A DNA stretch of 64,000 nucleotides. Origin: Kordiimonadaceae bacterium (GTDB lineage Bacteria; Pseudomonadota; Alphaproteobacteria; Sphingomonadales; Kordiimonadaceae). Of this stretch, positions 39,145 to 62,651 are shown one piece after another. How positions within the stretch are numbered: position 1 is the stretch's first letter; the number at the start of each line of letters is the position of its first letter. The stretch covers positions 608,704 through 672,703 of the forward strand of contig JAEPQB010000003.1 of assembly GCA_017640725.1 (NCBI GenBank). The letters are read 5' to 3'. The notes beneath the pieces were generated by a model. It did no database searches. It worked only from the letters and a program-made list of their open reading frames with translations, and was not told where the DNA came from. A program made the position numbers and the translations under genes.

Positions 39145-40194
39145 TTATTGCGGAAATGGGAATTCTGGCGGCGTTTTGGGGGTGGGTCTCCACTGGATGG
39201 CCTTTCGCATTAGGTGCGGAATCAACATGTACAGAGGCATTCTGAGATAATGACTTCGAATATATAAGTAGCCCTTGCCAATAAAGGATGACCAGTTGTC
39301 ACGCAGTTTGTTGAGCATCGCGAACTTCAGTGCAGGATATCGCCAACTGGCTCTTAGCTCAGTCGACAGATGTTTAGCCTCGGTTTGATCAAAAACGTGA
39401 CCCACCATCCACAACCCAAGCGCCACCGACATTTGTGCACCAACCTCACGGGCACGAAAAACAAGCGTACTCTTTTCATCCTCAGTGAGCTCGGTAAACA
39501 AAAAATACTGTTCCACCAAGGTTCGGGCGGGCGTGTCCAAAGCGCCATCCGCATAAGCGTGAACGGCAGAATGAATGATTTGGTCTACCGGACTAAATAC
39601 TTTCAGATTACCTGTATTCAACTCATGCGCTTCGGAGAACATTTTTGCTTCGTCAACTGTGTTTCTCGCCGTTATTGGCAACAATGCATGATGGACATCA
39701 ATGACTGTGCCGCGGCTTTTGTGCCGCAACGGTGGCAACTCGTGCATGTGTTGCCTGTAGTATTGCTGGTCATACTCATTGTTTGTTTGGTCGTCAGGCT
39801 GCCAACCTGCGCATAACAAATGCTGCTCTATTTCTTGCAAGTCATTCGGTCGAACAAGAATATCCAAATCACTTACACGCCTGCCCAATGACGCCCTACC
39901 ACTACTCGCAACATATGCGCCGCCCTTAAGCACAACAACAGGCAGATCAAGGCCAGCTAAAGCACGCTCCACACGATTCATCTCATACGTCAGCATGGTA
40001 TGATCATGTGCCGCCCGCAGCTTTGCATTACTGAAAACATCGGCCATCCCTGATGACCCAGAACTGTGACAGTGGAAAGCCATTTGACCAAGGATGTGAT
40101 TTGCATCGGCAAATCTGATCAGATCAATTCGATCCATTACCCCTTTTGGCAACGGCTGCAGCCCAACAATTATTCTTAATGCATCTTTGATCAT
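39145..40194 (-). CDS. NTP_transf_5-type nucleotidyltransferase of the HPr-rel-A cassette
   Basis: A 349-residue protein with the nucleotidyltransferase-fold signature VVVLKGG (86-92), GRRVSDLDILVRP (104-116), in which Asp109 and Asp111 are the expected metal ligands; this is the pattern of the uncharacterised nucleotidyltransferase family PF14907. The N-terminal helical part and the long C-terminal helical part (with aromatic/basic residues, last 60) are of unknown role. It overlaps the kinase gene by four bases (ATGA). In lasso-peptide clusters such as pseudomycoidin, a member of this family acts after a HprK-like kinase to add hexoses to the peptide phosphate; a comparable tailoring role here is inference. 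Confidence 0.82.
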   Translation of the reverse strand: MIKDALRIIVGLQPLPKGVMDRIDLIRFADANHILGQMAFHCHSSGSSGMADVFSNAKLRAAHDHTMLTYEMNRVERALAGLDLPVVVLKGGAYVASSGRASLGRRVSDLDILVRPNDLQEIEQHLLCAGWQPDDQTNNEYDQQYYRQHMHELPPLRHKSRGTVIDVHHALLPITARNTVDEAKMFSEAHELNTGNLKVFSPVDQIIHSAVHAYADGALDTPARTLVEQYFLFTELTEDEKSTLVFRAREVGAQMSVALGLWMVGHVFDQTEAKHLSTELRASWRYPALKFAMLNKLRDNWSSFIGKGYLYIRSHYLRMPLYMLIPHLMRKAIQWRPTPKTPPEFPFPQ

Positions 40195-41117
40195 GAAGGC
40201 CCCTCGCCAGCGAGTTGCTCAACCAGTTGCACGCTTTGCTCCGTCGTACCATACGTTATTTCGAAAGTTTGAGCTGCTTTCACCATAGAAACTATCGCCT
40301 TGTAGGCCGGTTCACCAAGCAAAGAGTAATTTGTAGAGGCCGCCACCAGTCGCATAATGGCTTCTGCTGGATTCAGTCGCCGCGCCAACGGCTGGGCTCC
40401 GGCCTGAAAGTTCGGGAATAAGATTAGTTTAACAGGTGCTGATGCATTGTTCTCTGCAAGGCTTTCCGCAGCAACACGAGCATAGGCAATGTCCCCTTTT
40501 GGCGTGTCGCTGATCACGTCACTCACGCGATCTGCGCCCAACAACTCACGCACAATTGGAATGCTCTGTTGTTTTAACGAAATTGGTCTCGGGTAGGCCC
40601 TTACGTCCGCTGAGTCCAAGTCCAACAATGCAAACTCATCCGAAAACAGAGAATAACCTTCGCTGTGCAGCGCCGCTGCCAAAGTACTTTTGCCGCCCCC
40701 GGATGCGGCGCTCATCATAATTGCAGAACCATTTTTGGCCACGACACCCGCATGAATGGTTACGAAGCGACAAGTTTTCAGGGCTACAGAAAGGTTTAAA
40801 CCCATCTCAAAGCCAAGTGGCGCCATGGATTCGGGCAAAGGCACGGCAGGAACATGAAAGCCAGGGTCTGGTGAAATCTGCGGGCGAATGAACCTTCGGA
40901 ACACATTTGGTGCCTTTAGGCGCAACATGATTTCAGTTACATCGTCTGGGTCAAGTGATGCTTGGCACTCAGGGTACATACCAATCAGGTGCGGTAGCAA
41001 GTGGCGTGCCGGCCCTTTGATCAAGTGAGAAAATGGCCCAAGCCGCAAGGTAAAGCTGCCCCGCTTCAGCGCCCTATTCAGGTCTGTGCTGTTCAGGTCT
41101 TTAACTGTTTTGTGCAT
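40191..41117 (-). CDS. HprK-related kinase A (HPr-rel-A system)
   Basis: Start ATG 41117 (a TTG at 41120 is less likely), 308 residues. The C-terminal half (about 115-305) resembles HPr kinase: P-loop SAASGGGKST at about 136-145, then LFSDEFALLDL with an acidic pair at the place of the HprK Asp-Asp, and later Pro/Lys-rich segments. The N-terminal half is unlike the HprK regulatory domain. No HPr, PTS or HprK partner is in the window. It overlaps the PqqD-like gene by 17 bases and the nucleotidyltransferase by 4, so the three are one translational unit. TIGRFAM names such proteins HprK-related kinase A; the substrate is unknown. Confidence 0.82.
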   Translation of the reverse strand: MHKTVKDLNSTDLNRALKRGSFTLRLGPFSHLIKGPARHLLPHLIGMYPECQASLDPDDVTEIMLRLKAPNVFRRFIRPQISPDPGFHVPAVPLPESMAPLGFEMGLNLSVALKTCRFVTIHAGVVAKNGSAIMMSAASGGGKSTLAAALHSEGYSLFSDEFALLDLDSADVRAYPRPISLKQQSIPIVRELLGADRVSDVISDTPKGDIAYARVAAESLAENNASAPVKLILFPNFQAGAQPLARRLNPAEAIMRLVAASTNYSLLGEPAYKAIVSMVKAAQTFEITYGTTEQSVQLVEQLAGEGPS

Positions 41118-41433
41118 CAAGGCTAACCGGACTGATCAACCCAGCCTCATCAAGTTGCTGAACAACTGTTTCTACAAGGGACAGCGGCAAATCCTGCTCT
41201 GAAAGAGCGAATTTCGACAGAAGCGCGTGCCACAACGTCACATTTGTTGCAGGAGAACTGCCAACCAGTTCGAGCGCACCAAAGGATAAAAAATTGAGAA
41301 AGTGTGTTTCCGCGGACGGCTTAAAAAACACCAAATGGGTATCATTAAACTCTTCAGACATCCAACTTTCGGGGTCTGCTGTCCACTCAATTACAGCTTG
41401 GGCTGACTCTACACCTTGTTCGGCCGTCGGCAT
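41101..41433 (-). CDS. PqqD-like protein of the HPr-rel-A system
   Basis: Small protein of 110 residues. From residue about 30 it shows the PqqD-type winged-helix pattern: DTHLVFFKPSAETHFLN (strands), FGALELV helix, then a pair of helices ending VVQQLDEAGLI. PqqD-like domains bind leader peptides of ribosomal peptides and hand them to modifying enzymes; here the ligand is not known. It starts 13 bases after the Asp-rich protein gene and overlaps the kinase gene, so the Asp-rich protein is the most obvious candidate partner. Weak sequence similarity makes the family call moderate; context with HprK-like and nucleotidyltransferase genes supports it. Confidence 0.75.
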   Translation of the reverse strand: MPTAEQGVESAQAVIEWTADPESWMSEEFNDTHLVFFKPSAETHFLNFLSFGALELVGSSPATNVTLWHALLSKFALSEQDLPLSLVETVVQQLDEAGLISPVSLDAQNS

Positions 41434-41446
41434 GAAAGGTATCGCA

Positions 41447-42205
41447 CTAACTGCCGAGATAATTCAGGATTGAAACCACGCATGAAATGCCTGGCCAGCT
41501 TCCAGCGTTACCATACGAATTGGCGTAACTCAGCGACAAAATGATATACAGCCCCTTGGAACCGCTCGGGTTCCAGCCACCGTTATTGCCCAAATAGTCA
41601 GACGGCTTGATTTCCGTATTGCGACTTATGGTGTAGCGGGCATAACCGTTATCTTGCCACTCTGGATCACAGTCATCATCGTCGTCGTCATCATCTTTCG
41701 AACGGCGATTCCCTGCAGCGAAGGAAGCAATCTCCGCGGCATTAGATGGCATGGGAGAATTTAAGAGCGCGTCGAGCTCAGACAGTGCATTGCTACCGTT
41801 GCCACTACCAATGTCGTTATCATCGCCACCATTATCGTCATCAGCATCACATACAACTTCAGGGCAAGCGGTTGGACGATAACTGCTTGGTACTGTACCT
41901 GACGGGAAGACATAGTCCGCGTTTTCTTTGAATGCCTTGATATCGGCAACGTTCCAGCCCTGGCCGTTTCTGTAACGCAATCGACGATTGCCAACCCATG
42001 CTGCACCGTTACAATTCACAAGAATGCGAACTCGTCTTGGTAAAACGAATGCACACTGCAACTGGGATATAAGAACTTGCTGTGCTGAAGCTTTGAGGGT
42101 CAGCACCATAGGCAAACCGGCGGCGCCCATCCGCAAAAGTTGCCGTCTGTCTGCTAGTTTCTGCTGTTCTGAATCCAATTCAGGTGTATCTGGCTGCTCA
42201 GTCAC
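41447..42205 (-). CDS. Tat-type exported Asp-rich, six-cysteine protein of unknown function
   Basis: Not recognised. 252 residues from GTG 42205 (GGAAG upstream). An acidic start is followed by a twin-arginine-type signal: DRRQLLRMG (19-27), a hydrophobic stretch and ASA (39-41). The mature part has six Cys (51, 65, 114, 119, 179, 242), an acidic low-complexity stretch DADDDNGGDDNDIGSGNGSN (120-139) and a run of eight Asp (171-178, bases 41672-41695) directly before Cys179. The C-terminal 60 residues are rich in Gly, Asn, Ser and Tyr. The Asp codons are mixed GAT/GAC. It is the first gene of the HPr-rel-A operon, 13 bases before the PqqD-like gene. Calcium binding or surface attachment is conceivable but unproven; it may be the substrate of the cassette. 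Confidence 0.7.
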   Translation of the reverse strand: MTEQPDTPELDSEQQKLADRRQLLRMGAAGLPMVLTLKASAQQVLISQLQCAFVLPRRVRILVNCNGAAWVGNRRLRYRNGQGWNVADIKAFKENADYVFPSGTVPSSYRPTACPEVVCDADDDNGGDDNDIGSGNGSNALSELDALLNSPMPSNAAEIASFAAGNRRSKDDDDDDDDCDPEWQDNGYARYTISRNTEIKPSDYLGNNGGWNPSGSKGLYIILSLSYANSYGNAGSWPGISCVVSILNYLGS

Positions 42206-42438: not shown

Positions 42439-43713
42439 ATGGAAAAGATGCGGGAATCAGCCGGTATTCAAGCTCTATTGAGCGAAAGAACGATCATAAT
42501 TGTTCTGCTGGCCCTGCTCGCCTTTTTTTGGTCCGTCGATCTTGTGGACTCGGTCGCCGCCCTATTCGTCTTCGTGATCATTGCTTCGCTACTGCTCAGA
42601 CTAGAGTTCAAGAAACACCGGATGGCTTTAAAGTTAAGGGCGACTGAAAGCAAAAAGCTCGAGTTCAACAAACATGGCGGAATTAAATCTGTTCGCGCCA
42701 ACACATTGAATGCTGTGCCACTTCCTATCCTCATAATTGGCGAAGATCATCGAATAAGCTTTTCAAACCAGGCCGCCAATGACCTTCTGGGCAGCGATAT
42801 TATCAACAACGACGTATATCTTTACTTGCGCAAGTCGAAGATCATGAAGGCGATCAAGTCTATTTTCGAAGGCGGCAAGAAGCATGCAGGTGTCGTAAGA
42901 TACACCAACAAGCAAAAACGCAGTTTTGATGTGACAATCTCAAGGGTTTCCGGCACCGGCGGCGATGATGTCCCCACTCAAGCCATGGCCTTCTTCTATG
43001 AAATCACCAGCATGCTGCAAACGGAACAAATGCGCGTGGATTTTGTGGCCAATGCAAGTCACGAACTGCGTACCCCGCTCTCCTCACTTATTGGATTCAT
43101 TGAAACTTTGCAGGGACCTGCAAAGGATGACGCACCAGCCCAGGAAAGATTTCTGGGCATCATGCAGTCAGAAGCAGAAAGAATGGTACGCCTTATCGAC
43201 GACCTTCTTTCACTTTCTAAAATTGAAATGTCTCGCCACGAGGTTCCTGAAACCATTGTGAATGTTGAAACAATGATTCAGAGCGTGTTGCTGACTGCTT
43301 CAAAAGTAGCAAAAGAGCGGAACATTGAATTTAGCTGCGAAATTGAGAAAAAAGCGACAAAGGCTATAGCTGACCCTGACCAATTAATGCAGGTTTTGCT
43401 CAACTTGTGCATCAATGCGGCGAAATATGCGGACCGCGAATCCACAGTTCATGTAGAGGCAAGATTGAGCAAAACTCGAAAATTCATCAATGTCTCAATC
43501 AGGGATGAAGGCCCGGGAATTTCCAAAGAGCATTTAGCACGCCTAACCGAACGGTTTTACCGGGTAGACAATGCCAGGTCGCGCAAAATGGGGGGCACTG
43601 GATTGGGGCTTGCTATTGTGAAGCACATTCTTCTCAGGCACGACAGCATGCTGGACGTAAAAAGTGCCGTAGGCAAAGGGACAACTTTCAGCTTCAAGCT
43701 TAGGAGGGCCTGA
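42439..43713 (+). CDS. phoR: Phosphate regulon sensor histidine kinase PhoR
   Basis: Inner-membrane sensor kinase of 424 residues. Two hydrophobic segments at about 18-33 and 37-54 are joined by only a few residues, so there is essentially no periplasmic sensor, the PhoR hallmark. A PAS domain follows (about 88-195, LPILIIGEDHRISFSN), then HisKA with phospho-acceptor His208 in NASHELRTPL, and HATPase with the N box (LCINAAKYAD), G1 (DEGPGIS) and GTGLGLAIVKHIL. PhoR normally senses via the PstSCAB-PhoU system, which is not in the window. It precedes phoB, the reverse of the usual order. Confidence 0.9.
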   Translation: MEKMRESAGIQALLSERTIIIVLLALLAFFWSVDLVDSVAALFVFVIIASLLLRLEFKKHRMALKLRATESKKLEFNKHGGIKSVRANTLNAVPLPILIIGEDHRISFSNQAANDLLGSDIINNDVYLYLRKSKIMKAIKSIFEGGKKHAGVVRYTNKQKRSFDVTISRVSGTGGDDVPTQAMAFFYEITSMLQTEQMRVDFVANASHELRTPLSSLIGFIETLQGPAKDDAPAQERFLGIMQSEAERMVRLIDDLLSLSKIEMSRHEVPETIVNVETMIQSVLLTASKVAKERNIEFSCEIEKKATKAIADPDQLMQVLLNLCINAAKYADRESTVHVEARLSKTRKFINVSIRDEGPGISKEHLARLTERFYRVDNARSRKMGGTGLGLAIVKHILLRHDSMLDVKSAVGKGTTFSFKLRRA

Positions 43714-43904
43714 TCCCTATTAGAAACCAAGCCAAACTGCTGTAACAATACAGACATTTGCTCGCAAAACCCGCCATTAAAATGTAACATAGCCGCAGTA
43801 TCAGTATCAGCACGATATGGCTGCTTTTGTGGTGTCACTGCTCAGGTAAACAGTCGCAGCGAGATTAATACTCGAAGCGAACCTAAGCGATAAAGGACTA
43901 ATCT

Positions 43905-44591
43905 GTGAAAACCAGAGTTCTACTGATTGAAGACGATCTGAACATCACCGAGTTGGTTCGGTACAATTTGGAACGTGCTGATTATAAAGTTGATGCCGTT
44001 GCAGATGGTGAAGAAGGGCTTTACCTAGCAGCTCAAGATACACCGGACGTGATATTGCTAGATTGGATGCTTCCAAACTTATCTGGCCTTGAAATTTGTC
44101 GGCAATTGCGACGCAACGGCGAAACCGCAAATGTCCCTATCATTATGTTGACGGCAAGAGCCGATGAACCTGATCGTGTTCGAGGTCTTGAAACTGGCGC
44201 AGATGACTATGTGGTAAAACCATTTTCGCCGAAAGAGCTCATCGCACGCATTCAAGCCGTGCTACGCCGTGTGCGCCCTGCTCTTGCTGGCAAAGAACTA
44301 ACGTTTGAAGATATTCGCCTGGACAACGTGTCGCATCGTGTCACGCGCAACGGCACGTCGATACACTTGGGACCAACTGAGTATCGATTGCTTCGGCACT
44401 TCATGGAAAACCCAGGCCGAGTTTTCTCAAGAGAACAGCTCTTGGATTCTGTTTGGGGGCATGATGTTTATGTGGAGCCTCGCACTGTTGATGTCCACAT
44501 CAGGCGACTGCGAAAAGCCATGAACGAAGCCGGTAAAGACTATATCCGAACCGTTCGTTCAGCCGGCTACGCGCTCGACAACAATTCATAG
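43905..44591 (+). CDS. phoB: Phosphate regulon response regulator PhoB
   Basis: OmpR-type response regulator of 228 residues. Receiver domain with acidic residues EDD (9-11), phospho-acceptor Asp53 (LLDWMLPN), the T/S in LTARA and Lys in VVKPFSPKEL. DNA-binding winged helix (about 130-228): RNGTSIHLGPTEYRLLRHFMENPGRVFSREQLLD and VDVHIRRLRKAM. PhoB is favoured over other OmpR regulators because of the adjacent PhoR-type kinase and the LGPTEYRLL/GRVFSREQ signature. The 191-base space after phoR suggests its own promoter. Its end lies 9 bases from the convergent end of the amidotransferase gene with no clear terminator. Confidence 0.9.
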   Translation: MKTRVLLIEDDLNITELVRYNLERADYKVDAVADGEEGLYLAAQDTPDVILLDWMLPNLSGLEICRQLRRNGETANVPIIMLTARADEPDRVRGLETGADDYVVKPFSPKELIARIQAVLRRVRPALAGKELTFEDIRLDNVSHRVTRNGTSIHLGPTEYRLLRHFMENPGRVFSREQLLDSVWGHDVYVEPRTVDVHIRRLRKAMNEAGKDYIRTVRSAGYALDNNS

Positions 44592-44600
44592 CCATTTGAT

Positions 44601-46499
44601 TTAGCTAGATGGAATTTCCAAGTTCAGTTTTTTCAGGCTGCGCTCAAGCATAATCAGTGCCCACAAGCTGGTATGATGATCCCTGGCTCCAATAACATGT
44701 TCTTCAGCCATTTGTTGAATGCCGAACATGTTGAACAAGCCGCTGTCCCCAAACACTTCACTTTCCCCAAGCGACATTGTGTCATCCGCCAATTCATTGC
44801 GTAGCCAACTGATGGTAGGCACATCAAAGCCTTTTTTGACGCGGTCTAAGGTTGCATCAGGCAAAAATCCTCGCAGCGCCTTTCTAAAGACAGACTTTCC
44901 TTCGCCGTCAACAATGCGCTCTCTTGGAGACACGCGCAGGCCCCACTCCACAAATTTATGGTCAAGAATGGGAACTCTTACCTCCAGGCTATTCGCCATG
45001 CTAGCCCGGTCTACTTTGGTCAGTATGTCGCCGGGTAAGTAGGTTTTAAGGTCCAGGTACTGAATGAGGGAAAGCGGGTCTGCACCCTTTACCTCGTCCG
45101 CCAACTCAGTAAAGCGATCATGGGGGTGATATCCAGCAAGTAGTTTGCGCATTTTGCGTGAATGCCAGCGTTTCCGGTCCCGGTCTGGCGTTCGGCTCAC
45201 GCTCTGACAGTAGGCCTGCGCTGAAGTGCGTGCCAGTGCCTCGAACGTTGATTTCGCCCGCATAAACTGTGGGGCGCGATCAAGTTTAGGGTAAATGACG
45301 CTTAAGGGCCCAAAGATAGCGCGCCGCAGGAACATCGGCATCATGCTTCGCAAGGACTCTTCAGCCATATGGAACCGGTGACGTCGATAGCCAGCGAACA
45401 GTTCGTCGCCGCCATCACCTGACAAAGCAACTTTGACCTTCTCTCGAGCCAACCCACACACCCGGTACGTCGGAAGCGCTGACGGATCCGCAAATGGTTC
45501 ATCGTAAACGTCTACAATTCTATCGATGAGGGTCCGGTCGGTCGCTGAAACAAGCCGCCATCGGTGGCTTGTCTTAAAATGGTCGGCGACAATCTGCGCA
45601 TACCCACTTTCATCATATGCAGGGTCCTCAGACCCAATGGCGCAGGTTTCAACGGAGGACGTGCCAAGACGAGACATCAAGCCAACAACAGCACTCGAAT
45701 CAACGCCGCCCGACAAGAAGGCGCCCAACGGAACATCCGCAATCATGCGCATTTTTACGGCGTCTTCGAGGCGGGCCAACAAGTCTTCTTGTCGCGACAC
45801 GGTCAATCCTGCCATGCCGATACCTGGCTGCCAGTAGCATGTCAGCCTTGGTGACCGCTGACCTTTTTCGAGAGACAGTGTTGTGGCTGGCGGAAGTTTG
45901 TGCACGCCTTCTATGATTGATTTTGGATCTGGGACATATCCTAAGGTCAAATAATCCTCGAGAGCATCAACCCTTAGCTTGCGGGGCATAGAATTGATAC
46001 ACAACAGTGATTTGAGCTCGGAACCAAAATAGAAATCGCCATTTGGCAAGAAGGTGTAATAAAGCGGCTTGATACCCAGGCGGTCTCTTGCCAGAAACAA
46101 CTTGCGCTTCGGCCCATCCCATATCGCAAATGCAAACATGCCTCGGAGTCGGTCGACGCAGGCTTCGCCCCACTCCATGTAGCTTGTCATTAAGACTTCG
46201 GTATCTGAATGGGTCGAAAACTTGTGCCCCAAGTTCTCGAGTTCACGCCTAAGGGATTGAAAATTATATATTTCGCCATTGTATGACAGGACAAACTCTT
46301 TGCCCGGGCTGTACATGGGCTGCAGCCCGCCTGCGATATCAATAATGGAAAGCCGTTTATGACCTAAAGCAACGTCACCGCCGAAAAAATACCCATCCCC
46401 ATCTGGGCCCCGGTGGTTGATTGCATCTGTCATTTGGCGCAGTAATGGCTCATCCACATTTGAACCATTGTGGGTCATGCAACCCGTTATCCCGCACAT
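44601..46499 (-). CDS. XrtA system asparagine synthase-like amidotransferase
   Basis: 632 residues of class II glutamine amidotransferase plus asparagine synthetase fold. The nucleophile is Cys2 (MCGITGC). Glutaminase motifs RLSIIDIAGGLQPM, YNGEIYN and SDTEVL are followed by the synthetase P-loop SGGVDSSAVVG and the GDGGDELFAGYRRH loop. This matches the exosortase A system-associated amidotransferase 1 family, which is thought to modify sugars of the exopolysaccharide; that is family knowledge, not seen directly. It is the last gene of the locus and overlaps the xrtA gene by 13 bases. Confidence 0.92.
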   Translation of the reverse strand: MCGITGCMTHNGSNVDEPLLRQMTDAINHRGPDGDGYFFGGDVALGHKRLSIIDIAGGLQPMYSPGKEFVLSYNGEIYNFQSLRRELENLGHKFSTHSDTEVLMTSYMEWGEACVDRLRGMFAFAIWDGPKRKLFLARDRLGIKPLYYTFLPNGDFYFGSELKSLLCINSMPRKLRVDALEDYLTLGYVPDPKSIIEGVHKLPPATTLSLEKGQRSPRLTCYWQPGIGMAGLTVSRQEDLLARLEDAVKMRMIADVPLGAFLSGGVDSSAVVGLMSRLGTSSVETCAIGSEDPAYDESGYAQIVADHFKTSHRWRLVSATDRTLIDRIVDVYDEPFADPSALPTYRVCGLAREKVKVALSGDGGDELFAGYRRHRFHMAEESLRSMMPMFLRRAIFGPLSVIYPKLDRAPQFMRAKSTFEALARTSAQAYCQSVSRTPDRDRKRWHSRKMRKLLAGYHPHDRFTELADEVKGADPLSLIQYLDLKTYLPGDILTKVDRASMANSLEVRVPILDHKFVEWGLRVSPRERIVDGEGKSVFRKALRGFLPDATLDRVKKGFDVPTISWLRNELADDTMSLGESEVFGDSGLFNMFGIQQMAEEHVIGARDHHTSLWALIMLERSLKKLNLEIPSS

Positions 46500-48025
46500 A
46501 AGCCACCGTTCCTTATGTTGACGCCCCCGAGCCCATTTAAATCGTTATCCAGTGCAATTGTCGACAGAAATTCTTCAAATGAAGCACGAACCGGCATCAA
46601 ATTTCCTGCGATCGGTGCACTCAAGACAATAACCGCGCCAATGGCGGGCGCCCTTCTCAGCTGCACCCAAGCCGTTACGAGTTTCTCATCGATGCTATTC
46701 GTAACGACTGTGCCACCAAGATTGTGATGGGCCCAAACAACCATTTCGCTCTCTCCGCGCCGGAGAATGCTTTCTGTGAAAGTGATTGAGCATTGTTGAG
46801 CCAGAATAGTCACAGAATCGGATTTCACCGGCTTCCATTCTTCTGATGCCAGGCTGTTTCCAGGCTGAAACAAGCGTTGGCCCGCACTCAACTCATTGAA
46901 TTTTGCCAAATGTGCACGAAAAACCACGCCATTATGCCTAAATAGCGAAGACCATTGCTCATCCGCTGAGATAAAATTTGGTCTGGCTATTAAATCAGTA
47001 TTCGCCAAAGTTCGAAATTTGGTCTCCGCGGCGAAAATCAATGGTTTGATTTCCGAAGGCGTTTTGAGCAACCCGCTTTGGTCAGACTGCGGCACTGCCA
47101 ACAAGCCCAAAACCGGTAACAATACTAGAGCAAGCCAGATGGCGACTTGCTGACGATGTGGGTGAGTAACATGAGATATTGTTTTAGTTTCAATATTATT
47201 GTCTACGGGGTCAGGCCGATCGGAATATCGATAAGCAACTGAAATCAAAGTAAACAGAACAATTGATAAGAAAACCCACCCGTAAACAAGGTGGTCAAAG
47301 CCCTTTGCCAGCTTCTGATCAGAAAGCTCCGCTATCAAGAAAATCAGAAGGACACGCAGTGCATTTGCCACAATGGGCAATACGATACTACCCGCAATGA
47401 CCGCAAAACGCTTCTTCCAGCTGGCGTACAACAAGTGAGACAGCAAGACGCCTGTAAAAATGCTTGTAAAAAGGAATTTTACCCCGGCACATGCTTCAGC
47501 AACTTCATACAAACCACTTGGCAAAGTGATCAACATGCCTTGGGCTGTGTAGTCGGCACCGATGAAGTCCAGCACACCGATGACCAAGTTAGCTGTCAAA
47601 TATTGAAGTGGTGTGACAAGCTCAGATCCGAAAGGCACAGAAAAATAAAGGAAAAGCATCGGGAACAAAAGTTGCCTGTATACCTTCAAACCAAAGGAGC
47701 CAATGACTACACCCTGGATAGCAGTCACTAAGGCAACATGCTGAAACAGTGCGAAGTCCAGGAGCGAACCAGCCACCCACAACAAGCTGGCGGCGAAAAC
47801 AATCAGCACCCCTAACCAACTGCTGGCAGGAACCAGCCGCGCTAACGCGTCCCTACGGGACCATATCAGCGAGGCACTTACGATCGGCGCCAAAAGCCCG
47901 TGCGCAAAGGCATCAACCTTCCACAAAATCTGGACCATGTGAGCTCCAGTATCATGCCAAGCAAGTAAGAGCACGATGAGCCCACCAGCACACAGGACAG
48001 AGTTAGATTTCCACTTATGTTGCAT
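46487..48025 (-). CDS. xrtA: Exosortase A fused to EpsI domain
   Basis: Integral membrane transpeptidase-like sorting enzyme that recognises and cleaves PEP-CTERM tails. From ATG 48025 (not the TTG at 48064) it has 512 residues. About eight helices in the first 270 residues carry the exosortase triad: Cys179 in EACAGVKFLF, Arg224 in NALRVLLIFL and His245 in FDHLVYGW. The C-terminal 220 residues (about 290-512) are a soluble EpsI-type domain, predicted outside the membrane. The start overlaps the preceding glycosyltransferase by 11 bases. No gene for a PEP-CTERM substrate is nearby. XrtA and EpsI are separate proteins in some species and fused in others; here they are fused. Confidence 0.93.
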   Translation of the reverse strand: MQHKWKSNSVLCAGGLIVLLLAWHDTGAHMVQILWKVDAFAHGLLAPIVSASLIWSRRDALARLVPASSWLGVLIVFAASLLWVAGSLLDFALFQHVALVTAIQGVVIGSFGLKVYRQLLFPMLFLYFSVPFGSELVTPLQYLTANLVIGVLDFIGADYTAQGMLITLPSGLYEVAEACAGVKFLFTSIFTGVLLSHLLYASWKKRFAVIAGSIVLPIVANALRVLLIFLIAELSDQKLAKGFDHLVYGWVFLSIVLFTLISVAYRYSDRPDPVDNNIETKTISHVTHPHRQQVAIWLALVLLPVLGLLAVPQSDQSGLLKTPSEIKPLIFAAETKFRTLANTDLIARPNFISADEQWSSLFRHNGVVFRAHLAKFNELSAGQRLFQPGNSLASEEWKPVKSDSVTILAQQCSITFTESILRRGESEMVVWAHHNLGGTVVTNSIDEKLVTAWVQLRRAPAIGAVIVLSAPIAGNLMPVRASFEEFLSTIALDNDLNGLGGVNIRNGGLCAG

Positions 48026-49247
48026 CTGAATTCTGGCCACGGGAGCGCGTGAAAACTCGCTCAATTACTTGGTCTAGTTGTCCGAATGCCGCGTCCCAGC
48101 TGTTGTGTTGTTGCACAAACAAGCGCGCGTTGTTCCCTACACCACTCGCTGTGGAGGGATTGTTTAATAGTTGAACAACAGCGTCGGCAAACGAGTCCGC
48201 CTGATCGGCAACTACAATAGCGTCCCCGTCTGGCGCGTTAATGCCTTCGTTGGCGGCACTTGTGCAAACCACTGGCTTTGCCATGGCCATACCTTCCAAG
48301 ACTTTATTCTGAATGCCCCGCGCCGTACGCAAAGGAGCAACAACAACGTCTGACTTTGCAATCTCTGCTGCCATATCTTGCACACCGCCTACAATGGTCA
48401 CACCGTCGATGGTACTCAAAGCTCTTATGGCTGGCGCAACTGGACGACCGGCGACAAAAAACTCTGCATCTTGCAGCGAGTTTCTAACAATTGGGAAGAT
48501 GTTACGCGCAAACCATTCGACGGCATCGACATTCGGGGCATAGTCCATGGCTCCCGTAAATAAAATTCGACGACCGTTGGATATTGTGTTGGCGTAATTG
48601 CCTGGGTCAAATATTTCAGTTGCGACACCATTGGCAATGCCGGAAACGGACAACATTTCTGACACAGTACCAAGCCGCTGTTTGAACAGGTCGGCTTCGT
48701 CAGCACTAACAAACACTGAGGCAGCGCTCTCTTTAGCCAGCTCCTGTTCGAAGTGTCGGAGCATTCGACCCTCACGAGCATACACGGCACCCATGATATC
48801 GGATTTTTGGGCAGCATATGCGTCCCACTTGGCTGAATCCACGTCAACGAAATCAGTGATTATCGGAACGGAAACCTGTTTAGGAAGGAAACTTCGGCTT
48901 GCGGCAGAAAACAGAAAAATGAGGTCGACACCTTGTTCGAGCACTTCTTGCAATTTGCTCCGAAGCGTTTTTGACGGATATGCCATTTCAGTCAAACTTC
49001 GCCCAACGGCAAAACCACGTAATGACGCACATTTTTGTGTCAATGGGCTGGCGAATGCTGAGTGCACGCTAGCACAATGTGTCTCCAGAAACGTCAAATG
49101 CTCCTGGTCTTCAGGCTCATCAATGAAAAAGCCTGCATGAACTTCGTGATGTTCGCACAAATGTTTCAAAAAATTCCAAGAGCGAATTTTGTCACCCTTA
49201 TTCGGTGGATAAGGTATCCGATGTGCGACAAAGAGAATTTTTGCCAT
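48015..49247 (-). CDS. TIGR03087 family PEP-CTERM/XrtA system glycosyltransferase
   Basis: Cytoplasmic GT-B glycosyltransferase, 410 residues from ATG 49247 (GGGG upstream; the longer frame from 49301 overlaps the FemAB gene and lacks homology). The start KILFVAHRIPYPPNKGDKIRSW is highly characteristic of the XrtA-linked TIGR03087 family. The C-terminal nucleotide-sugar domain has FTGAMDYAPNVDAV and GIQNKVLEGMAMAKPVV. The sugar donor is unknown. It sits between femAB-like and xrtA genes, overlapping the latter. Confidence 0.92.
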   Translation of the reverse strand: MAKILFVAHRIPYPPNKGDKIRSWNFLKHLCEHHEVHAGFFIDEPEDQEHLTFLETHCASVHSAFASPLTQKCASLRGFAVGRSLTEMAYPSKTLRSKLQEVLEQGVDLIFLFSAASRSFLPKQVSVPIITDFVDVDSAKWDAYAAQKSDIMGAVYAREGRMLRHFEQELAKESAASVFVSADEADLFKQRLGTVSEMLSVSGIANGVATEIFDPGNYANTISNGRRILFTGAMDYAPNVDAVEWFARNIFPIVRNSLQDAEFFVAGRPVAPAIRALSTIDGVTIVGGVQDMAAEIAKSDVVVAPLRTARGIQNKVLEGMAMAKPVVCTSAANEGINAPDGDAIVVADQADSFADAVVQLLNNPSTASGVGNNARLFVQQHNSWDAAFGQLDQVIERVFTRSRGQNSDAT

Positions 49248-49251
49248 GCCC

Positions 49252-50292
49252 CTACCCCAAATGGCGCGCCAGTGGCGGGCCAAGCAATTTTGAAACGCCA
49301 AATGGCATTTTTTTCCAATAATTGCTCAGTGTAGCATAAGGGCCCGATTGCTGAGACAAATTGGGCGGCTCAACACCGTCGGCCAAGCGCATCTCGTACC
49401 CAAGTGGCTGAGGTTCAAAACCCCAATTTTTCTTGAACTTATAAGGACCCGTGTCAATTTTACTGCGGCCAAAATCGAACTGAGTGCAACCCTTTTGGCG
49501 GGCTGCCAGCATCAGTTGATAGTACATGAAATCATGGGCCGCGTACTTGCGCACCAATGTGCCTCCGCCGGCATAATATGGCATTACCGTGTCTTTGAAA
49601 AAGAAGCTCATTAAGCTGGCAACAGGACGACCGTCACAGTCTTCTGTCAATTGAACGGCAACCCTGTCACCAAAAACAGCAACCAGACTGGCAAACAGTT
49701 TTTTCGGGAATACCGGAGTGCCAAGGGACCACACACTACGGGCATAAAGTTCGTAAAATTCGTCAACGCTGTCTGTCCAGCGAGTGCGCAAATTATTTTT
49801 CAGGCTCTTGCGAATTACCGCTCTTTGTTTGCGTGGAATTGCAAGAAGCTGAGCTTCATCGTCCGCGGCCAGGTCTTTTGAAAAGGTTGCAGCCCCCTCA
49901 ATTGGAACCCAGCTAGTATCGCCGTCATGCTGAGCAACCTTGGATCTTATCTCAAGTATTGGCAGACCCGTTTTTTGTGCCCAAATCCAAGCTTCTTCAA
50001 CAAGTCTGTCGCCAATTTCTTTTGAAGAAGCCAAAGCACCGCCATAAACACAAAACATGTTCGATATCAGCGCCTTACCAAAAAGTGGGTGTTTTTTGAT
50101 GGTAAGAGGCAAAACGCCAACAATATCATTGCCAGATTTTGCGACCAAATAGGGGCAAGACTGCCCTGCCCCTTTTTCTATAACCGACTTCCAACCGACA
50201 AGGTGACAGAAGGTGCCATCCAAATGATGAAACACATATTCGTCCCAAGCGGGATAGTCTGCTTCTGTCACCGTTTCGACGATTACGGGCAT
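49252..50292 (-). CDS. FemAB family XrtA/PEP-CTERM system-associated protein
   Basis: Protein of 346 residues with two tandem GNAT-like domains of the FemAB/LPG-transferase type. Such enzymes transfer amino acids from aminoacyl-tRNA or acyl groups; this XrtA-linked subgroup has no assigned donor. Seen: the N-terminal DYPAWDEYVFHH, GVLPLTIKKHPLFGK and the C-terminal YAAHDFMYYQLMLAARQKGCTQFDFGRSKIDTGPYKFKKNWG, which is very typical of the subgroup. The start ATG 50292 overlaps the deacetylase stop by one base (TGATG). It precedes the glycosyltransferase gene by four bases. Confidence 0.9.
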   Translation of the reverse strand: MPVIVETVTEADYPAWDEYVFHHLDGTFCHLVGWKSVIEKGAGQSCPYLVAKSGNDIVGVLPLTIKKHPLFGKALISNMFCVYGGALASSKEIGDRLVEEAWIWAQKTGLPILEIRSKVAQHDGDTSWVPIEGAATFSKDLAADDEAQLLAIPRKQRAVIRKSLKNNLRTRWTDSVDEFYELYARSVWSLGTPVFPKKLFASLVAVFGDRVAVQLTEDCDGRPVASLMSFFFKDTVMPYYAGGGTLVRKYAAHDFMYYQLMLAARQKGCTQFDFGRSKIDTGPYKFKKNWGFEPQPLGYEMRLADGVEPPNLSQQSGPYATLSNYWKKMPFGVSKLLGPPLARHLG

Positions 50293-51206
50293 CAACCGGC
50301 ACCCATAGCGAATTCAGTCGTCAGGAAATCTTCAAGGGCCATGAACTCGTTTTGCGAGAGTAACTCCTCAAGCTTCCCGGCCATTCGTTCTTGACCAACA
50401 TAGTGGCGCAACCGCGACTTAAGAGGTGCTTCTTTTACAAAAGGCTGCTCTGGATCCACTTCCCAAGGATGCATATAGAAAATAGTGCCGATGCCGGTCT
50501 GCTTGCGAGCTTTTCGCATCAACCACTCTGATAATAGCTTGGGCAGCAATCGGAAATAACCGCCTCCAGAAGCTGGAATCGTTCTGCCAAATACTTGGGC
50601 AACAGTCATGGGAACCTCGAGAAACTCAGCGCCCTCCAGCGGAAAGAAAGGCACACGCGGTAGGCCGGCAGCCCCATAATGGTCTGTTTGTGCTGGCACA
50701 ACGCTCGAAGAATAGCGAAAACCGGCTTCTATTAATTGCTCATAGTGCCCCCACGTGTCTTGAGACATGGAAAAACTGGGCGCCCTGTATCCTTGGACCG
50801 GTTTTCCGCATGCGTCTTCAAGAAGGTTTTTGGCGCAGCTAACATCCTCGAGAAATTCAGAAGCACTAAAGCGAAAAACCCGTTGGTGATCCATGCCATG
50901 ACAAGCGATCTCATGGCCTTGATCTGAAATAGTTTTGATCAACTTCGGTGACCGCTCAGCCACCCAGCCCAAACAAAAAAAAGTTGCTTTTGTATTCGTG
51001 GTTTCTAGCAGCTGAAGAATTTTGTGGGTCTGGAGTTCAACCCTGCTTTCAAGCTGTGGCCAGTCTTCACGCGACAATGTATTTTCGAACGCGCCCACTT
51101 GGAACCATTCTTCAACATCTACCGAAAACACATTGTTTATGACCGCAGCATGGTCCTTCCGCCGTCTAGGTGCGAGCTGAAGGTCGTCCACGACGAAGGC
51201 TGCCAT
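50292..51206 (-). CDS. XrtA system polysaccharide deacetylase
   Basis: NodB-family deacetylase with a DUF3473-type C-terminal region, 304 residues. Catalytic motifs: FSVDVEEWF (Asp-containing motif 1), HEIACHGMDHQRVF (zinc-binding His pair, motif 2), QGYRAPSFS (motif 3) and FYMHPWEVDP (later His). It presumably removes acetyl groups from the exopolysaccharide or its precursor; it has no signal peptide, so it should act in the cytoplasm. The first about 25 residues (rich in Arg) before the usual start are extra. It follows the ATPase gene by three bases. Confidence 0.92.
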   Translation of the reverse strand: MAAFVVDDLQLAPRRRKDHAAVINNVFSVDVEEWFQVGAFENTLSREDWPQLESRVELQTHKILQLLETTNTKATFFCLGWVAERSPKLIKTISDQGHEIACHGMDHQRVFRFSASEFLEDVSCAKNLLEDACGKPVQGYRAPSFSMSQDTWGHYEQLIEAGFRYSSSVVPAQTDHYGAAGLPRVPFFPLEGAEFLEVPMTVAQVFGRTIPASGGGYFRLLPKLLSEWLMRKARKQTGIGTIFYMHPWEVDPEQPFVKEAPLKSRLRHYVGQERMAGKLEELLSQNEFMALEDFLTTEFAMGAG

Positions 51207-51209
51207 GGC

Positions 51210-52247
51210 TCACTCTTCGTCCTTTTTTGACCCGCTTGCCAGTTGCGTCATCAATTGAGTGAGTTGCTGAAGAGTTTGATCCTGGGATTTCATCATGTCT
51301 TCAAGCTGACTTATTCGGTTATCCATTTCTTTATTGGGTTCCGAACCTCGCCGCGCCTCAAGGGGGACTGTAGAGTCGTTCATCGAGCTGGGCGGTGGTG
51401 CCGATACGGCGGAAGATACAGGCGTAACTGGCCGCGTGTCGCTTGTCATATCAGCAACAACGGCACCTACAGTTTCCCCATCAATTGTATGTAATTCCTC
51501 AAGCGAACCATAGAGCAGTATTCGTGAACACAGCGTATTGAGCCTGCGGGGAACGCCTGCAGAATGATTGAAAATCGCCTCGACGGCGTCCGCCGTAAAG
51601 CAAGGGTCGTTATCCCAACCGACCAGGCTCAAGCGGTGTTGGATATAGTCAGCAAGCTCTTCCTTCTCCATCGGCTCAAGGTGGTGTGTTGCAATCACTC
51701 GCTGACGAAGCTGTTCAAGTTCGGGAGCGGAGAAAATACGCTCGCGGAATTCAGGTTGGCCAACAAGAAAGCTCTGTACCAGTGCTTTGTCACCATCCTG
51801 GAAATTGGAAAGCATGCGCATTTCTTCTAGCGCGGCATTGGAAAGGTTTTGAGCTTCGTCCACAACCAGCAACGCACGACGCCCACGCGCAAACTGTTCG
51901 CGCAGATGTTTCTCTAATCGGGCCAGAAGCTGGCCTTTGTCCTCTGCCTGGGCATCGAGACCAAAGGCGGCAACAACACTGCGCAAAAGATCTTCCGCGC
52001 TCAGCTGTGTACTAACTATCATGGCCGCAATAAATTCATTCCGGTCAAGCGTGTCAAACAGGTGGCGGACAAGGGTTGTTTTGCCGGTACCAATATCTCC
52101 GGTCACAATGATGAACCCTTCACCCTGGTTCAAACCATAGGTGAGATACGCCATCGCCTTTTTGTGAGTGCGTGAGCTAAAATAGAAACGAGGATCCGGC
52201 GTCAGCTGGAATGGTCGTCCCTGGAGATTGTAAAAACTTTCATACAT
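51210..52247 (-). CDS. XrtA system-associated AAA ATPase (GspA/ExeA-like)
   Basis: 345 residues. N-terminal AAA_22 domain resembling the ATPase ExeA/GspA: MYESFYNLQGRPFQLTPDP at the start, Walker A GDIGTGKTTL, Walker B LLVVDEAQN, and the sensor region DGDKALVQSFLVGQPEF. After a Ser/Pro-rich linker (about 265-300) a predicted coiled coil (MDNRISQLEDMMKSQDQTLQQL) forms the C-terminus. Members accompany the XrtA locus; their job in polymer export or assembly is not known. The TIGR03016 outer-membrane gene ends six bases upstream. Confidence 0.91.
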   Translation of the reverse strand: MYESFYNLQGRPFQLTPDPRFYFSSRTHKKAMAYLTYGLNQGEGFIIVTGDIGTGKTTLVRHLFDTLDRNEFIAAMIVSTQLSAEDLLRSVVAAFGLDAQAEDKGQLLARLEKHLREQFARGRRALLVVDEAQNLSNAALEEMRMLSNFQDGDKALVQSFLVGQPEFRERIFSAPELEQLRQRVIATHHLEPMEKEELADYIQHRLSLVGWDNDPCFTADAVEAIFNHSAGVPRRLNTLCSRILLYGSLEELHTIDGETVGAVVADMTSDTRPVTPVSSAVSAPPPSSMNDSTVPLEARRGSEPNKEMDNRISQLEDMMKSQDQTLQQLTQLMTQLASGSKKDEE

Positions 52248-52253
52248 ATGGCG

Positions 52254-53750
52254 CTAAAATGTTCCTCTGAGGTACAAAGTTACAGCGTTTTCTCTTAGAT
52301 CCTCACCTTCAAGGTTCGAGAGCCTTTGTGAATAATCATACGACACTGCTACCCTAAAGTATCTTGATATCGTTTTTTGCCAAGACAAGTTACCTACAAT
52401 GAAGTCATCTACTCGCACCCCATCTTCAAATAAACTTTGACGAAAGCTAAGTCGAGCATTTAGTGAGGTTTTTTCATTTATTTCGTGATCTGTTCCAACA
52501 GTTATTCCCCAAGCCTCGCCAGTTCCGGCGTCGTTATCAAAAGTACGCCACTCATAATTGGCACTTAAATAGCTGGTCGTACGCTTGTGCCTTAGTGTAA
52601 ATGTGCCCACTGCCGATCTTTGCCGAAAATCTACATCGGAAAAAGAAAAATTGGGATCGGTTTCGTCAATTGGCAAGCTTTCTGTATTGGTGATGCCGAG
52701 TTCACTGTTAAAACTCAAACTGTTGAGGGTGTCATTTGATACGATGGTATTTGCGGTTATGCGGTCTGTGTAACTGCCTGTGAAGTCAAAACGAGCCGAA
52801 AAGAAATACTGAAGCGATCCATACCAAACACTCCTCGCCCCTTCTTTACCAAAGGAAGCTGAAGCGTCTAGCTTACCTCCTGGTGTCCATCGAAGCCCCG
52901 TCTCCCAACCAAAGCCATCTTCTGCAAGCACTTCATTCTGAAAATCGTTTGAGGTGACATTCAGGTTACCGAACAACTGGATGTGCCGATTAGGCTTGAA
53001 TGTGACTTCGCCGCCCGCCCGTTCTTTACGGAAGTCGTTAACATCCAATGAACGGATTACACGGGAAGAATCCGCAAAAAGGCGCCACTGGAAATTACGA
53101 AACCGCTCTCCTGAGTCTAATGATGCAGTGAACTCGTGACTGGTCGAGTCCGAAAAATTGATGGGAAGCGTGTCATCGGTTAGATTGTCGGCTGGACTGC
53201 GCTGAAGCCCCAACCGGTATGTCAGGCGAAAGTCAGCATAATCTCTAATTCCCGATCTAAAAATACTAGTTGCGGTATATTCCTGGACCAAGCGGCGATT
53301 AGCTGTGCGGTTGGCTGCACTCCCAGACAAACTGCCGCGCTGGTCCAAAAATTGTTGCCGCAAACTGGCCCGTCCATTGATTGTCAAATGGTCTTCCCAG
53401 ACCTCTGCATCCAGTGTCCCAAAGGCATTCTGGCGAAACTCTTCAGTATCACTTGTGATAAAATAGAAATGATCCAGAGAGTAATCGAGAGCCAATCGTA
53501 GGCGGTTGCCGTCAATGCGTGTGTTGATGCCGATAGCGCTGTTCAGAACCGCTTCATACTCACGGTCCGTTTCCACCAGAGTAGCATTGTCAGTTCCAGT
53601 CACCCGAACTTCGGCGCGTGGGTCCACATATATGTGCTGGGCAAAGACCTCGCTACTCAAGGCACATAGTGTTGCCACACAGAAAAGCCCGGCACTTAAC
53701 CGGGCAGCAGAACGTTCAGTCCCATATTTTTCCACGGACTGGCAACTCAC
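52254..53750 (-). CDS. TIGR03016 family PEP-CTERM system-associated outer membrane protein
   Basis: Predicted outer-membrane beta-barrel of 498 residues. N-terminal signal peptide ends at SEVFAQ (about residue 38). The rest consists of alternating amphipathic strands with aromatic girdle residues and ends ENAVTLYLRGTF, with the C-terminal Phe that the BAM machinery recognises. XrtA loci regularly carry such a barrel (TIGR03016), presumed to take part in export of the polysaccharide or its anchoring; function not shown. It lies nine bases after the tyrosine autokinase gene. Confidence 0.87.
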   Translation of the reverse strand: MSCQSVEKYGTERSAARLSAGLFCVATLCALSSEVFAQHIYVDPRAEVRVTGTDNATLVETDREYEAVLNSAIGINTRIDGNRLRLALDYSLDHFYFITSDTEEFRQNAFGTLDAEVWEDHLTINGRASLRQQFLDQRGSLSGSAANRTANRRLVQEYTATSIFRSGIRDYADFRLTYRLGLQRSPADNLTDDTLPINFSDSTSHEFTASLDSGERFRNFQWRLFADSSRVIRSLDVNDFRKERAGGEVTFKPNRHIQLFGNLNVTSNDFQNEVLAEDGFGWETGLRWTPGGKLDASASFGKEGARSVWYGSLQYFFSARFDFTGSYTDRITANTIVSNDTLNSLSFNSELGITNTESLPIDETDPNFSFSDVDFRQRSAVGTFTLRHKRTTSYLSANYEWRTFDNDAGTGEAWGITVGTDHEINEKTSLNARLSFRQSLFEDGVRVDDFIVGNLSWQKTISRYFRVAVSYDYSQRLSNLEGEDLRENAVTLYLRGTF

Positions 53751-53759
53751 AGACCGTCT

Positions 53760-54869
53760 CTATCGTCCGCCGTAGCCGTAGTAAGAAGCAAACTTCTTAT
53801 TACTTCCGTTGTAACGCGTCTTGTTGAGCAGCAGGTTGATACTCTCGCAAGCGCTGATCATCCCCAGGCTTTCTTTTATCTGAGGTTCAGTTGTTTTCTC
53901 AGCTTCAATGACAAAAACCGTTTGCCCCATATAAAGGGCCAGTACGGAGGCAGCAGAACTGGCAAGAACGGGCGGCGAGTCGAAAATCACGATACGATCT
54001 TTGTAGCGTGTTGAAATCTCGTTCACCATGCTTTCCATGCGCTCACTGGCAAGCAATTCTGTCGTAAGATTGTGCTGACGTCCTGCTGGTAACAAAACGA
54101 GGTTCGGAATGTTGGTGCGCACGAGGCAGTCACCCACGTCCATGTTGCCGTCCGCCACGACATCCATCAGCCCTCGGCCGCCCTTAATGCCAAGCCGGTT
54201 CAAAATCTCTGGCTTCGAAAAATCAGCGTCCACCAACAGTACAGTAACGTCCTGTTCTGTAGCGATAGAAAGCGCCAGGTTAATGGTGCAAAAGGTTTTA
54301 CCTTCGCTGGGGTTGGAGCTTGTTACCAGAATTACATTATTGTTTTTGTCGTCGTTTTTATCGCCTTTGGGGAAGGCATTCAGCAACAGCGACCGTTTAA
54401 TGATCCTGAATTCCTCAGACATCAGGTTTGGTGGCATGTCAGGAGTTATGTACCCTGCTTCACGCAGGGCTACTAGGTCGATTTCCTCGGGTGCGCGTCG
54501 CTTTTTGGCCTTTTTGTTAACAGCAGCTCCTTCGCCTGCTGTGTCGCCAATAGCTAGGGAACGCGGCTTCGATTCTTCAACTTCAGCAAGTGTCGGAGCG
54601 GCATCTTCATTAGCTGGTGTTGGTGGCTTTGCTTTTGGTTTAGAATCAGGTGATCCAATTCCTTTAAAAGACGGCTTGGCATCATCCTCGATCAGTGAAG
54701 GGTTCAGAGAGGATGGATCTGGCTTTCGTTTAGAGGGAACCCCAATGCCACCGGCGGCAGCACGTTCAAACGGACTATCGCCCGCGCTCTTGGCCGCACG
54801 TTCTACAAGAGAAGAGCCTTTCTCTTTTTCTTTTTTTGCTTTTTTTGCTGCGCGCTCAATCAGGTCCAT
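53760..54869 (-). CDS. XrtA-associated tyrosine autokinase (BY-kinase)
   Basis: Cytoplasmic bacterial tyrosine kinase of 369 residues that works with the chain-length protein. ATPase core: Walker A TSSNPSEGKT (183-192), Walker A' VLLVDADFSKP (210-220), Walker B IVIFDSPPVL. The C-terminus has a Tyr cluster (Tyr363, Tyr364, Tyr366), the autophosphorylation tail. The N-terminal 130 residues are disordered and charged and contain three copies of an ERAA motif (5-8, 23-26, 35-38). It is separate from the membrane partner, the form typical of XrtA loci. The partner gene upstream is cut by an internal stop codon. Confidence 0.91.
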   Translation of the reverse strand: MDLIERAAKKAKKEKEKGSSLVERAAKSAGDSPFERAAAGGIGVPSKRKPDPSSLNPSLIEDDAKPSFKGIGSPDSKPKAKPPTPANEDAAPTLAEVEESKPRSLAIGDTAGEGAAVNKKAKKRRAPEEIDLVALREAGYITPDMPPNLMSEEFRIIKRSLLLNAFPKGDKNDDKNNNVILVTSSNPSEGKTFCTINLALSIATEQDVTVLLVDADFSKPEILNRLGIKGGRGLMDVVADGNMDVGDCLVRTNIPNLVLLPAGRQHNLTTELLASERMESMVNEISTRYKDRIVIFDSPPVLASSAASVLALYMGQTVFVIEAEKTTEPQIKESLGMISACESINLLLNKTRYNGSNKKFASYYGYGGR

Positions 54870-54907
54870 GAAACTTCACACTCGTTTTGACGACTAGCTG
54901 TCGGCAA

Positions 54908-55078
54908 TTAACCCGGGCCCCCAATCATATCGAACACAACAAAACCACCAAAGACAAGGAACAAGACAACTGTGGCGCCTGCAAACATCATAAGTTCGAT
55001 ACTGCGTTGACGTGTTTCCTCCTCTGACAGAGAGCGAGAAACATTGCCCAAGACGTTGAGGTCAAATTGAGCACGTAA
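54908..55078 (-). pseudogene. Detached C-terminal part of the chain-length determinant gene
   Basis: In the same frame as the upstream chain-length gene and directly after its TAG at 55081-55079, 56 further codons run to a TAA at 54910-54908. They encode LRAQFDLNVLGNVSRSLSEE and then a hydrophobic helix (about 30-50 of this segment, MMFAGATVVLFLVFGGF) with a short tail. The LPVLGxVS-like motif and the terminal membrane helix are exactly what follows in full-length XrtA/Wzz-type proteins. No ribosome binding site or start codon precedes it, so it would be translated only by readthrough. Confidence 0.75.
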
Positions 55079-56530: not shown

Positions 56531-56577
56531 CTCAACTCTCCACTAACAGCCCAATCGCACTTTGAAAAGTTGCCCGC

Positions 56578-57213: not shown

Positions 57214-57355
57214 AGAAAAACACTCATTTCCTGACGCCGACCCCTCGCATCAAATTTACTTAATGTAATTTAGTAGCTATTTGGCCATTTTTTACGTGAA
57301 GAATCAAGCACTAAGATGACGTTGAAGCTGTTAATTAAACGGGCTTATTCCGAAA

Positions 57356-57568: not shown

Positions 57569-57573
57569 CGGCC

Positions 57574-59831: not shown

Positions 59832-59837
59832 TTCACG

Positions 59838-62648: not shown

Positions 62649-62651
62649 AAA

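Follow-up and report, generated by a model that had tools for sequence, protein, structure and literature searches.

Organization of the operon

The 64-kb window analysed here (the whole stretch of DNA, from a genome of the genus Kordiimonas) contains a four-gene operon on the minus strand, at positions 39145-42205, which combines the kinase and PqqD-like protein of the HPr-rel-A system with a nucleotidyltransferase and an exported protein, the last being the proposed substrate of the other three. The host genome, in which the window is part of contig 8, is 4.04 Mb in size and its nearest named relatives are members of Kordiimonas. The first gene (41447-42205) has a GTG start behind a GGAAG sequence and encodes an Asp-rich exported protein of 252 aa with a twin-arginine translocation (Tat)-type signal. 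A gap of 13 bases separates it from the gene for a PqqD_rel_X protein (TIGR04353; 41101-41433; 38.7 bits, cut-off 35), which resembles the recognition element (RRE) of ribosomally synthesized and post-translationally modified peptides (RiPPs). This gene overlaps that of HprK-related kinase A (TIGR04352; 234.4 bits, cut-off 200) by 17 bases, presuming an ATG start at 41117; the kinase gene spans 40191-41117 from this ATG, or 40191-41120 from a TTG start. The kinase gene in turn overlaps by 4 bases the gene for an NTP_transf_5 nucleotidyltransferase (PF14907; 39145-40194; 128.7 bits, cut-off 31.2). The four open reading frames (ORFs), their strand and spacing, and the enzyme families are all as described in a first-pass annotation of this DNA.

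Distribution of the cassette

Scores above the cut-off for kinase A were obtained in 64 of 100 relatives. The class was sampled with 289 genomes, of which 8 had such a kinase, and the phylum with 398, of which 61 did; a scan of GTDB genomes yielded at least 580 relatives. The 80 best named loci were compared, ranging from Kordiimonas, Emcibacter and Sphingomonas to Massilia, Methylomonas, Thiobacillus and Ectothiorhodospira across the Alpha-, Beta- and Gammaproteobacteria. Absence of the first gene from other such loci had been named in the first-pass annotation as an outcome that would speak against its proposal; homologues are present, and 75 of the 80 loci have a Tat-type first gene directly upstream, separated from the PqqD-like gene by a median of 14 bases. 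The PqqD-like gene is itself adjacent in 74 loci, NTP_transf_5 lies downstream in 69, and the full set of four is found in 59; some of the absences fall at contig ends. The placement of a small gene for a twin-arginine-signal protein immediately before the PqqD-like gene recurs in the examined families of the order and across the phylum, indicating that the arrangement is not due to chance. The cassette is widespread and has four components rather than three.

Some loci depart from this layout. At L065, L079, L080 and L085, one kinase-transferase set is preceded by two different first genes, placed in tandem or around the PqqD-like gene. At L168, a kinase A gene lies beside XrtA-type polysaccharide genes, and neither a PqqD-like nor an NTP_transf_5 gene was recognised adjacent to it.

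Leader, motif and predicted fold of the first-gene protein

The first-gene protein carries a twin-arginine signal and six Cys residues, in agreement with the first-pass annotation. Searches of NCBIfam and Pfam placed first genes in no family above cut-off, and the gene is listed as a hypothetical protein in an annotated public record. The signal RRQLLRMGAAGLPMVLTLKASA (residues 20-41; 42083-42148, minus strand) has the features of a Tat substrate, with a twin-Arg n-region, a hydrophobic stretch and an AxA site, and a TatC gene is encoded in the host genome. In a leader alignment of 136 non-identical first-gene proteins the RR leader is present in 134 (94-99% conservation of RR), and a Gly (75%), a Pro (62%) and a Thr/Ser (93%) are conserved alongside it. 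These additional residues exceed what a Tat signal needs, suggesting that something else also recognises the leader, the PqqD-like protein being the simplest candidate. The sorting features of PEP-CTERM proteins (a C-terminal PEP motif, membrane helix and basic tail) were not found in the protein, which ends in GISCVVSILNYLGS.

Close to this end lies the motif PGISCVVSI (residues 238-246; 41468-41494, minus strand), in which Ser245 (41471-41473) is the predicted phosphorylation site and Cys242 occupies 41480-41482. P238, G239, S241, C242 and S245 are invariant in an alignment of 12 family members, and most alphaproteobacterial first-gene proteins end in G-[IFV]-[ST]-C-x-x-S-[ILVF]. In the form [ST]-C-x-x-S-[hydrophobic], the motif occurs within the last 45 residues of 64 of 76 curated first genes; among 957 other ORFs from these loci, 5 carry it. 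In the first-gene proteins assigned to class A, the motif Ser is Ser in 80 of 80 though Thr was permitted, and its median distance from the C-terminus is 7 residues. Paeninodin-type kinases are known to phosphorylate a C-terminal Ser (PMC8498205).

Just past the signal peptide, Cys51 (42053-42055, minus strand) is also invariant in the 12 family members and is conserved in 81% of the 136 proteins, and is the likely disulfide partner of Cys242. Cys counts are even in 76 of the 80 class A proteins, and in all 38 members with two Cys one is found after the signal peptide and the second belongs to the motif, as would be expected if they formed a disulfide in the periplasm. The Asp-rich part stressed by the first-pass annotation is an insert (residues about 120-178; 41672-41848, minus strand) between two conserved halves. 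It is missing from most relatives and from the paralogues, which still keep SCVVS, and an Asp-rich stretch is present in 18 of the 136 first-gene proteins, mainly those of the window's family; conservation lies in the first gene itself and not in its Asp-rich part, and the Asp-rich region is ruled out as the functional core. In the predicted model, residues 51-115 and 183-252 form one domain with fair to high confidence, the C-terminal motif stands at the start of the last helix and the insert is uncertain (predicted local distance difference test, pLDDT, about 47-61). The model had no significant fold match in the PDB, a result of little weight because the model is moderate only (pLDDT 70, 12 sequences), and a sequence search against solved structures returned only insignificant matches for this protein.

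These properties bear on the possibility that the first gene encodes a RiPP precursor, which the cassette would modify and from which a small phosphopeptide would later be cut out and released. Such a precursor would be in keeping with the enzyme set, which is common to paeninodin lasso peptides and the linear polyphosphorylated peptides (LPP), and with several substrates that are short (about 120-140 aa) and bear the motif at the very C-terminus. However, the operon includes no leader peptidase or transporter, no lasso B2 peptidase was found in the genome, and the predicted single domain and apparent pairing of N- and C-terminal Cys residues would ill suit the release of a C-terminal peptide. 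A peptide product is considered unlikely, and modification of the protein as a whole is preferred.

Co-occurrence of the first gene and the kinase

Among genomes of the window's family, all 26 with the kinase encode a homologue of the Asp-rich protein, compared with 1 of 4 without it (p 0.001); the sole kinase-negative carrier is a metagenome-assembled genome of 78% completeness with the homologue at the very edge of a contig. A profile built from Sphingomonadaceae-type first genes detected a member in 13 of 13 kinase-positive Sphingomonadaceae and in none of 12 kinase-negative ones (Fisher p 2e-7). In three of these 13 genomes (L260, L261 and L262) the first gene is not beside the kinase but is encoded elsewhere, next to a phoR-type gene, and these relocated genes keep the C-terminal motif (GFTCFASI twice, GLSCLNSF once), with a PqqD-like gene accompanying one of the three. 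Applied to Kordiimonas genomes, this profile recognises the leader of the cassette protein and of its paralogues but of no other Tat protein of the cell. All 41 matched relatives are kinase-positive. Together with the conserved Ser motif, this co-occurrence bears out the earlier suggestion that the first-gene protein is the natural substrate candidate.

An orphan paralogue of the Asp-rich protein is encoded in the same genome away from any kinase (contig 7, L100:7481-8107, genome G000), with leader and SCVVSI motif intact, and several Kordiimonas genomes contain comparable orphan paralogues. One kinase may therefore act on more than one substrate.

The window also contains an XrtA/PEP-CTERM exopolysaccharide locus (44601-63983) encoding an amidotransferase, XrtA, a glycosyltransferase, FemAB, a deacetylase, an ATPase and PrsT, about 4 kb from the end of the operon. 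This proximity, and the position of some gammaproteobacterial cassettes inside XrtA/exopolysaccharide loci, would fit enzymes acting on an exopolysaccharide precursor or another small molecule, the Tat protein being merely co-regulated. Yet the first gene tracks the kinase even when the two are unlinked, its product has an invariant Ser in a fixed motif, and the most closely related kinases of known function have peptide substrates (PMC10368454, PMC13381572). The distribution of XrtA argues in the same direction: within the order XrtA is found in 62 of 66 kinase genomes and in 16 of 34 others, which upholds at that level the link to XrtA proposed in the first-pass annotation, but phylum-wide 30 of 61 kinase genomes encode no XrtA-like exosortase, and there the link fails. 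A system obligately tied to XrtA is ruled out across the phylum, and the relation of XrtA to the cassette is an association, not a requirement. On balance a small-molecule substrate appears quite improbable, and the exported protein remains the favoured target.

Kinase, PqqD-like protein and nucleotidyltransferase

The kinase has invariant H123, G141, G143, K144, S145, T146, D161, E162 and K208. Those from H123 to E162 correspond to the H, GxGKS and D-[D/E] positions considered in work on BsfK, a kinase of lasso precursors (PMC10368454), with Glu replacing the second Asp. The predicted structure of the kinase, a high-confidence model (pLDDT 93.7), adopts the PEPCK/HprK fold, matching PEPCK (Z 15.7, root-mean-square deviation 4.9 over 277 residues) and the HprK/P-HPr complex 1kkl (E 2.3e-4); searches of solved structures gave no sequence match for either the kinase or the nucleotidyltransferase. 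The family matches and this fold support the view, already taken in the first-pass annotation, that the enzymes are of the lasso-tailoring kind (PMC10368454, PMC8498205). The fold and P-loop shared with HprK/P, including the complex with HPr, could point to a regulatory HPr kinase of the nitrogen phosphotransferase system with incidental neighbours. By sequence, however, the kinase falls outside the HprK family, scoring 11.6 bits against TIGR00679 (HPr kinase/phosphorylase; cut-off 240), and it regularly occurs with its own PqqD-like and Tat proteins, so that a regulatory role of this kind is very improbable.

Kinase activity in the Bsf system is strongly increased by the RRE protein. The nucleotidyltransferase retains K90-G91, R105, D109, D111 and several His residues that are invariant in 78 homologues, and so looks active. 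The pseudomycoidin NTP transferase adds hexoses to the phosphate (PMC8498205), but LppN had no detectable effect in a heterologous host (PMC13381572), making a second modification the least certain step of the mechanism proposed below.

Proposed function

The cassette is interpreted as a protein-tagging and export system with the first-gene protein as its substrate, a reading given a probability of roughly 0.6. The PqqD-like protein would bind the N-terminal leader in the cytoplasm and present the substrate to HprK-related kinase A, which would phosphorylate Ser245, the invariant Ser within the motif G-[IV]-S-C-x-x-S-I near the C-terminus, and the NTP_transf_5 protein would probably add a sugar or nucleotide to the Ser phosphate. 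ATP and nucleotide donors are cytoplasmic, so that modification would have to precede export, and the Tat pathway carries folded, finished proteins. The leader would double as the twin-arginine signal, the modified protein would be exported folded through the Tat pore, a signal peptidase would cut it and the motif Cys would pair with the Cys near the new N-terminus. To our knowledge, no leader has been described that serves both an RRE-like protein and the Tat machinery. The product may be bound for the cell surface or matrix; LPP peptides are often encoded within capsule loci of Bacilli (PMC13381572), a parallel that would make such a role plausible.

Several points weigh against this reading. 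Modification of the first-gene protein, including its phosphorylation, is predicted from the features described above. Binding of the leader by the PqqD-like protein is proposed by analogy, and the [Y/W]xxP motif bound by known RREs of this kind is absent from the window leader and present in 5 of 136 leaders. First genes were chosen partly by their Tat signal, a loose test that about 13% of other ORFs on these loci also pass, and the C-terminal motif was defined from the same sequences in which it was counted; the co-occurrence, Cys-parity and alignment tests are independent of both choices. At six Oxalobacteraceae-type loci the flanking DNA is long enough but contains no adjacent NTP_transf_5 gene, suggesting that phosphorylation is the core step. 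Finally, many first genes of the Beta- and Gammaproteobacteria belong to a class B, with a CxxSG-like motif near the mature N-terminus, and no single target sequence is thus universal.

The class B first gene has the same kind of Tat-type leader and a different body, with a CxxSGxxSGN-like motif right after the signal and an SPGYWKN motif, and matches no named family above cut-off. On the kinase tree, switches between class A and class B occur only twice among 121 labelled tips, indicating that kinase type and substrate type travel together, which is expected of partners but equally of common descent. Examples of class B among the beta- and gammaproteobacterial loci are L197, L213, L245 and L251. 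The loci L212, L216, L221, L233, L249 and L257 are Massilia-like cassettes with kinase, PqqD-like and Tat genes, in which NTP_transf_5 was not found at the expected site downstream of the kinase.

HPr-rel-A enzymes occur in hundreds of genomes without a known target, and one co-inherited protein with one invariant Ser is likely the missing substrate. If so, the targets of peptide-kinase tailoring would include a folded exported protein as well as small peptides of the lasso and LPP kinds, the Tat pathway would replace the usual peptidase and ABC exporter, and a new bacterial way of labelling surface proteins would be indicated. It is tentatively suggested, as the more doubtful extension of this reading, that such tagged surface proteins form a class occurring Pseudomonadota-wide in which, ahead of Tat export, a phosphate or phospho-sugar is placed on one fixed Ser of a protein closed by a disulfide, perhaps as a handle to extracellular polysaccharide, and in which the leader serves an RRE-like protein as well as Tat.

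Comparison with known systems

HPr-rel-A is the name given by NCBI to the TIGR04352/TIGR04353 enzymes, and the window kinase and PqqD-like protein pass both curated cut-offs. The adjacent NTP_transf_5 gene is presumably part of that cassette as well. No substrate is named for the system, and the first gene is added here as a candidate. In Bacillota, LPP clusters have been described (Popov et al. 2026) that encode a kinase, an RRE and an NTP transferase without a lasso cyclase (PMC13381572). Given this description and the existing HPr-rel-A name, the first-pass statement that the combination is not explained by any described system was too strong. The operon resembles LPP clusters in its discrete RRE, HprK-like kinase and NTP transferase and in lacking a lasso cyclase; LPP clusters are often located in polysaccharide loci and have precursors of 35-200 aa (PMC13381572). 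They differ in having an SpI-like leader peptidase, an MsbA-like transporter and a YxxP leader, in phosphorylation at core residue Ser3 and in their restriction to Bacillota (PMC13381572), whereas the Kordiimonas substrate has its own Tat signal and a predicted site near the C-terminus. Membership of the LPP group was ruled out, with no [Y/W]xxP leader and no SpI-like peptidase or MsbA-like transporter in the operon or its immediate neighbours.

The paeninodin, pseudomycoidin and Bsf systems share with the operon an HprK-like kinase with the same catalytic residues, an RRE helper and an NTP transferase, and in paeninodin and pseudomycoidin a C-terminal Ser is phosphorylated (PMC8498205). Their macrolactam cyclase and B2 leader peptidase are absent here, and the proposed substrate carries a Tat-type export signal. 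One might nevertheless suspect a lasso peptide cluster of degenerate or unusual form, given the paired kinase and nucleotidyltransferase and an asparagine-synthase-like gene 2.4 kb upstream of the operon. That gene, the only neighbour of its kind, encodes the XrtA amidotransferase TIGR03108 (830.6 bits, cut-off 816.9), scoring 248.4 bits against the lasso cyclase model NF033535 (cut-off 525), the leader has no YxxP, and the first-pass observation that the operon has no lasso cyclase or leader peptidase extends to the whole genome for Transglut_core3 peptidases, none of which was found. Without a cyclase or B2 peptidase, a lasso cluster is refuted on its defining genes, and even a degenerate form is scarcely credible. 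Scores are also low for SynChlorMet, both for the kinase against ScmC (19.9 bits, cut-off 125) and for one class B substrate against the precursor ScmA (15.5 bits, cut-off 35). A literature search for HPr-rel-A, HprK-related kinase, NTP_transf_5 and SynChlorMet found no paper by these names, although most subscription journals lay outside it and a description elsewhere is possible. The enzyme set is therefore known, by name as HPr-rel-A and by analogy with paeninodin-type lasso peptides and LPP; the conserved fourth component, its Tat-type leader, the fixed C-terminal motif as predicted site and the Pseudomonadota-wide spread are new.

Genomic neighbourhood

No plasmid copy of the window DNA was found, and PADLOC gave no match to phage defence systems. 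The divergent neighbour of the cassette is a phoR-type sensor gene (42439-44591). A consistent Pho box was not found at the loci compared, where the mean best match is 9.1 of 14 positions against 8.7 in shuffled sequence and the window itself reaches 9 of 14; two Kordiimonadaceae reach 11-12 of 14, on the strand reading towards phoR. A divergent phoR-type sensor adjoins the cassette in much of the order, sometimes together with pst genes (loci L062-L101).

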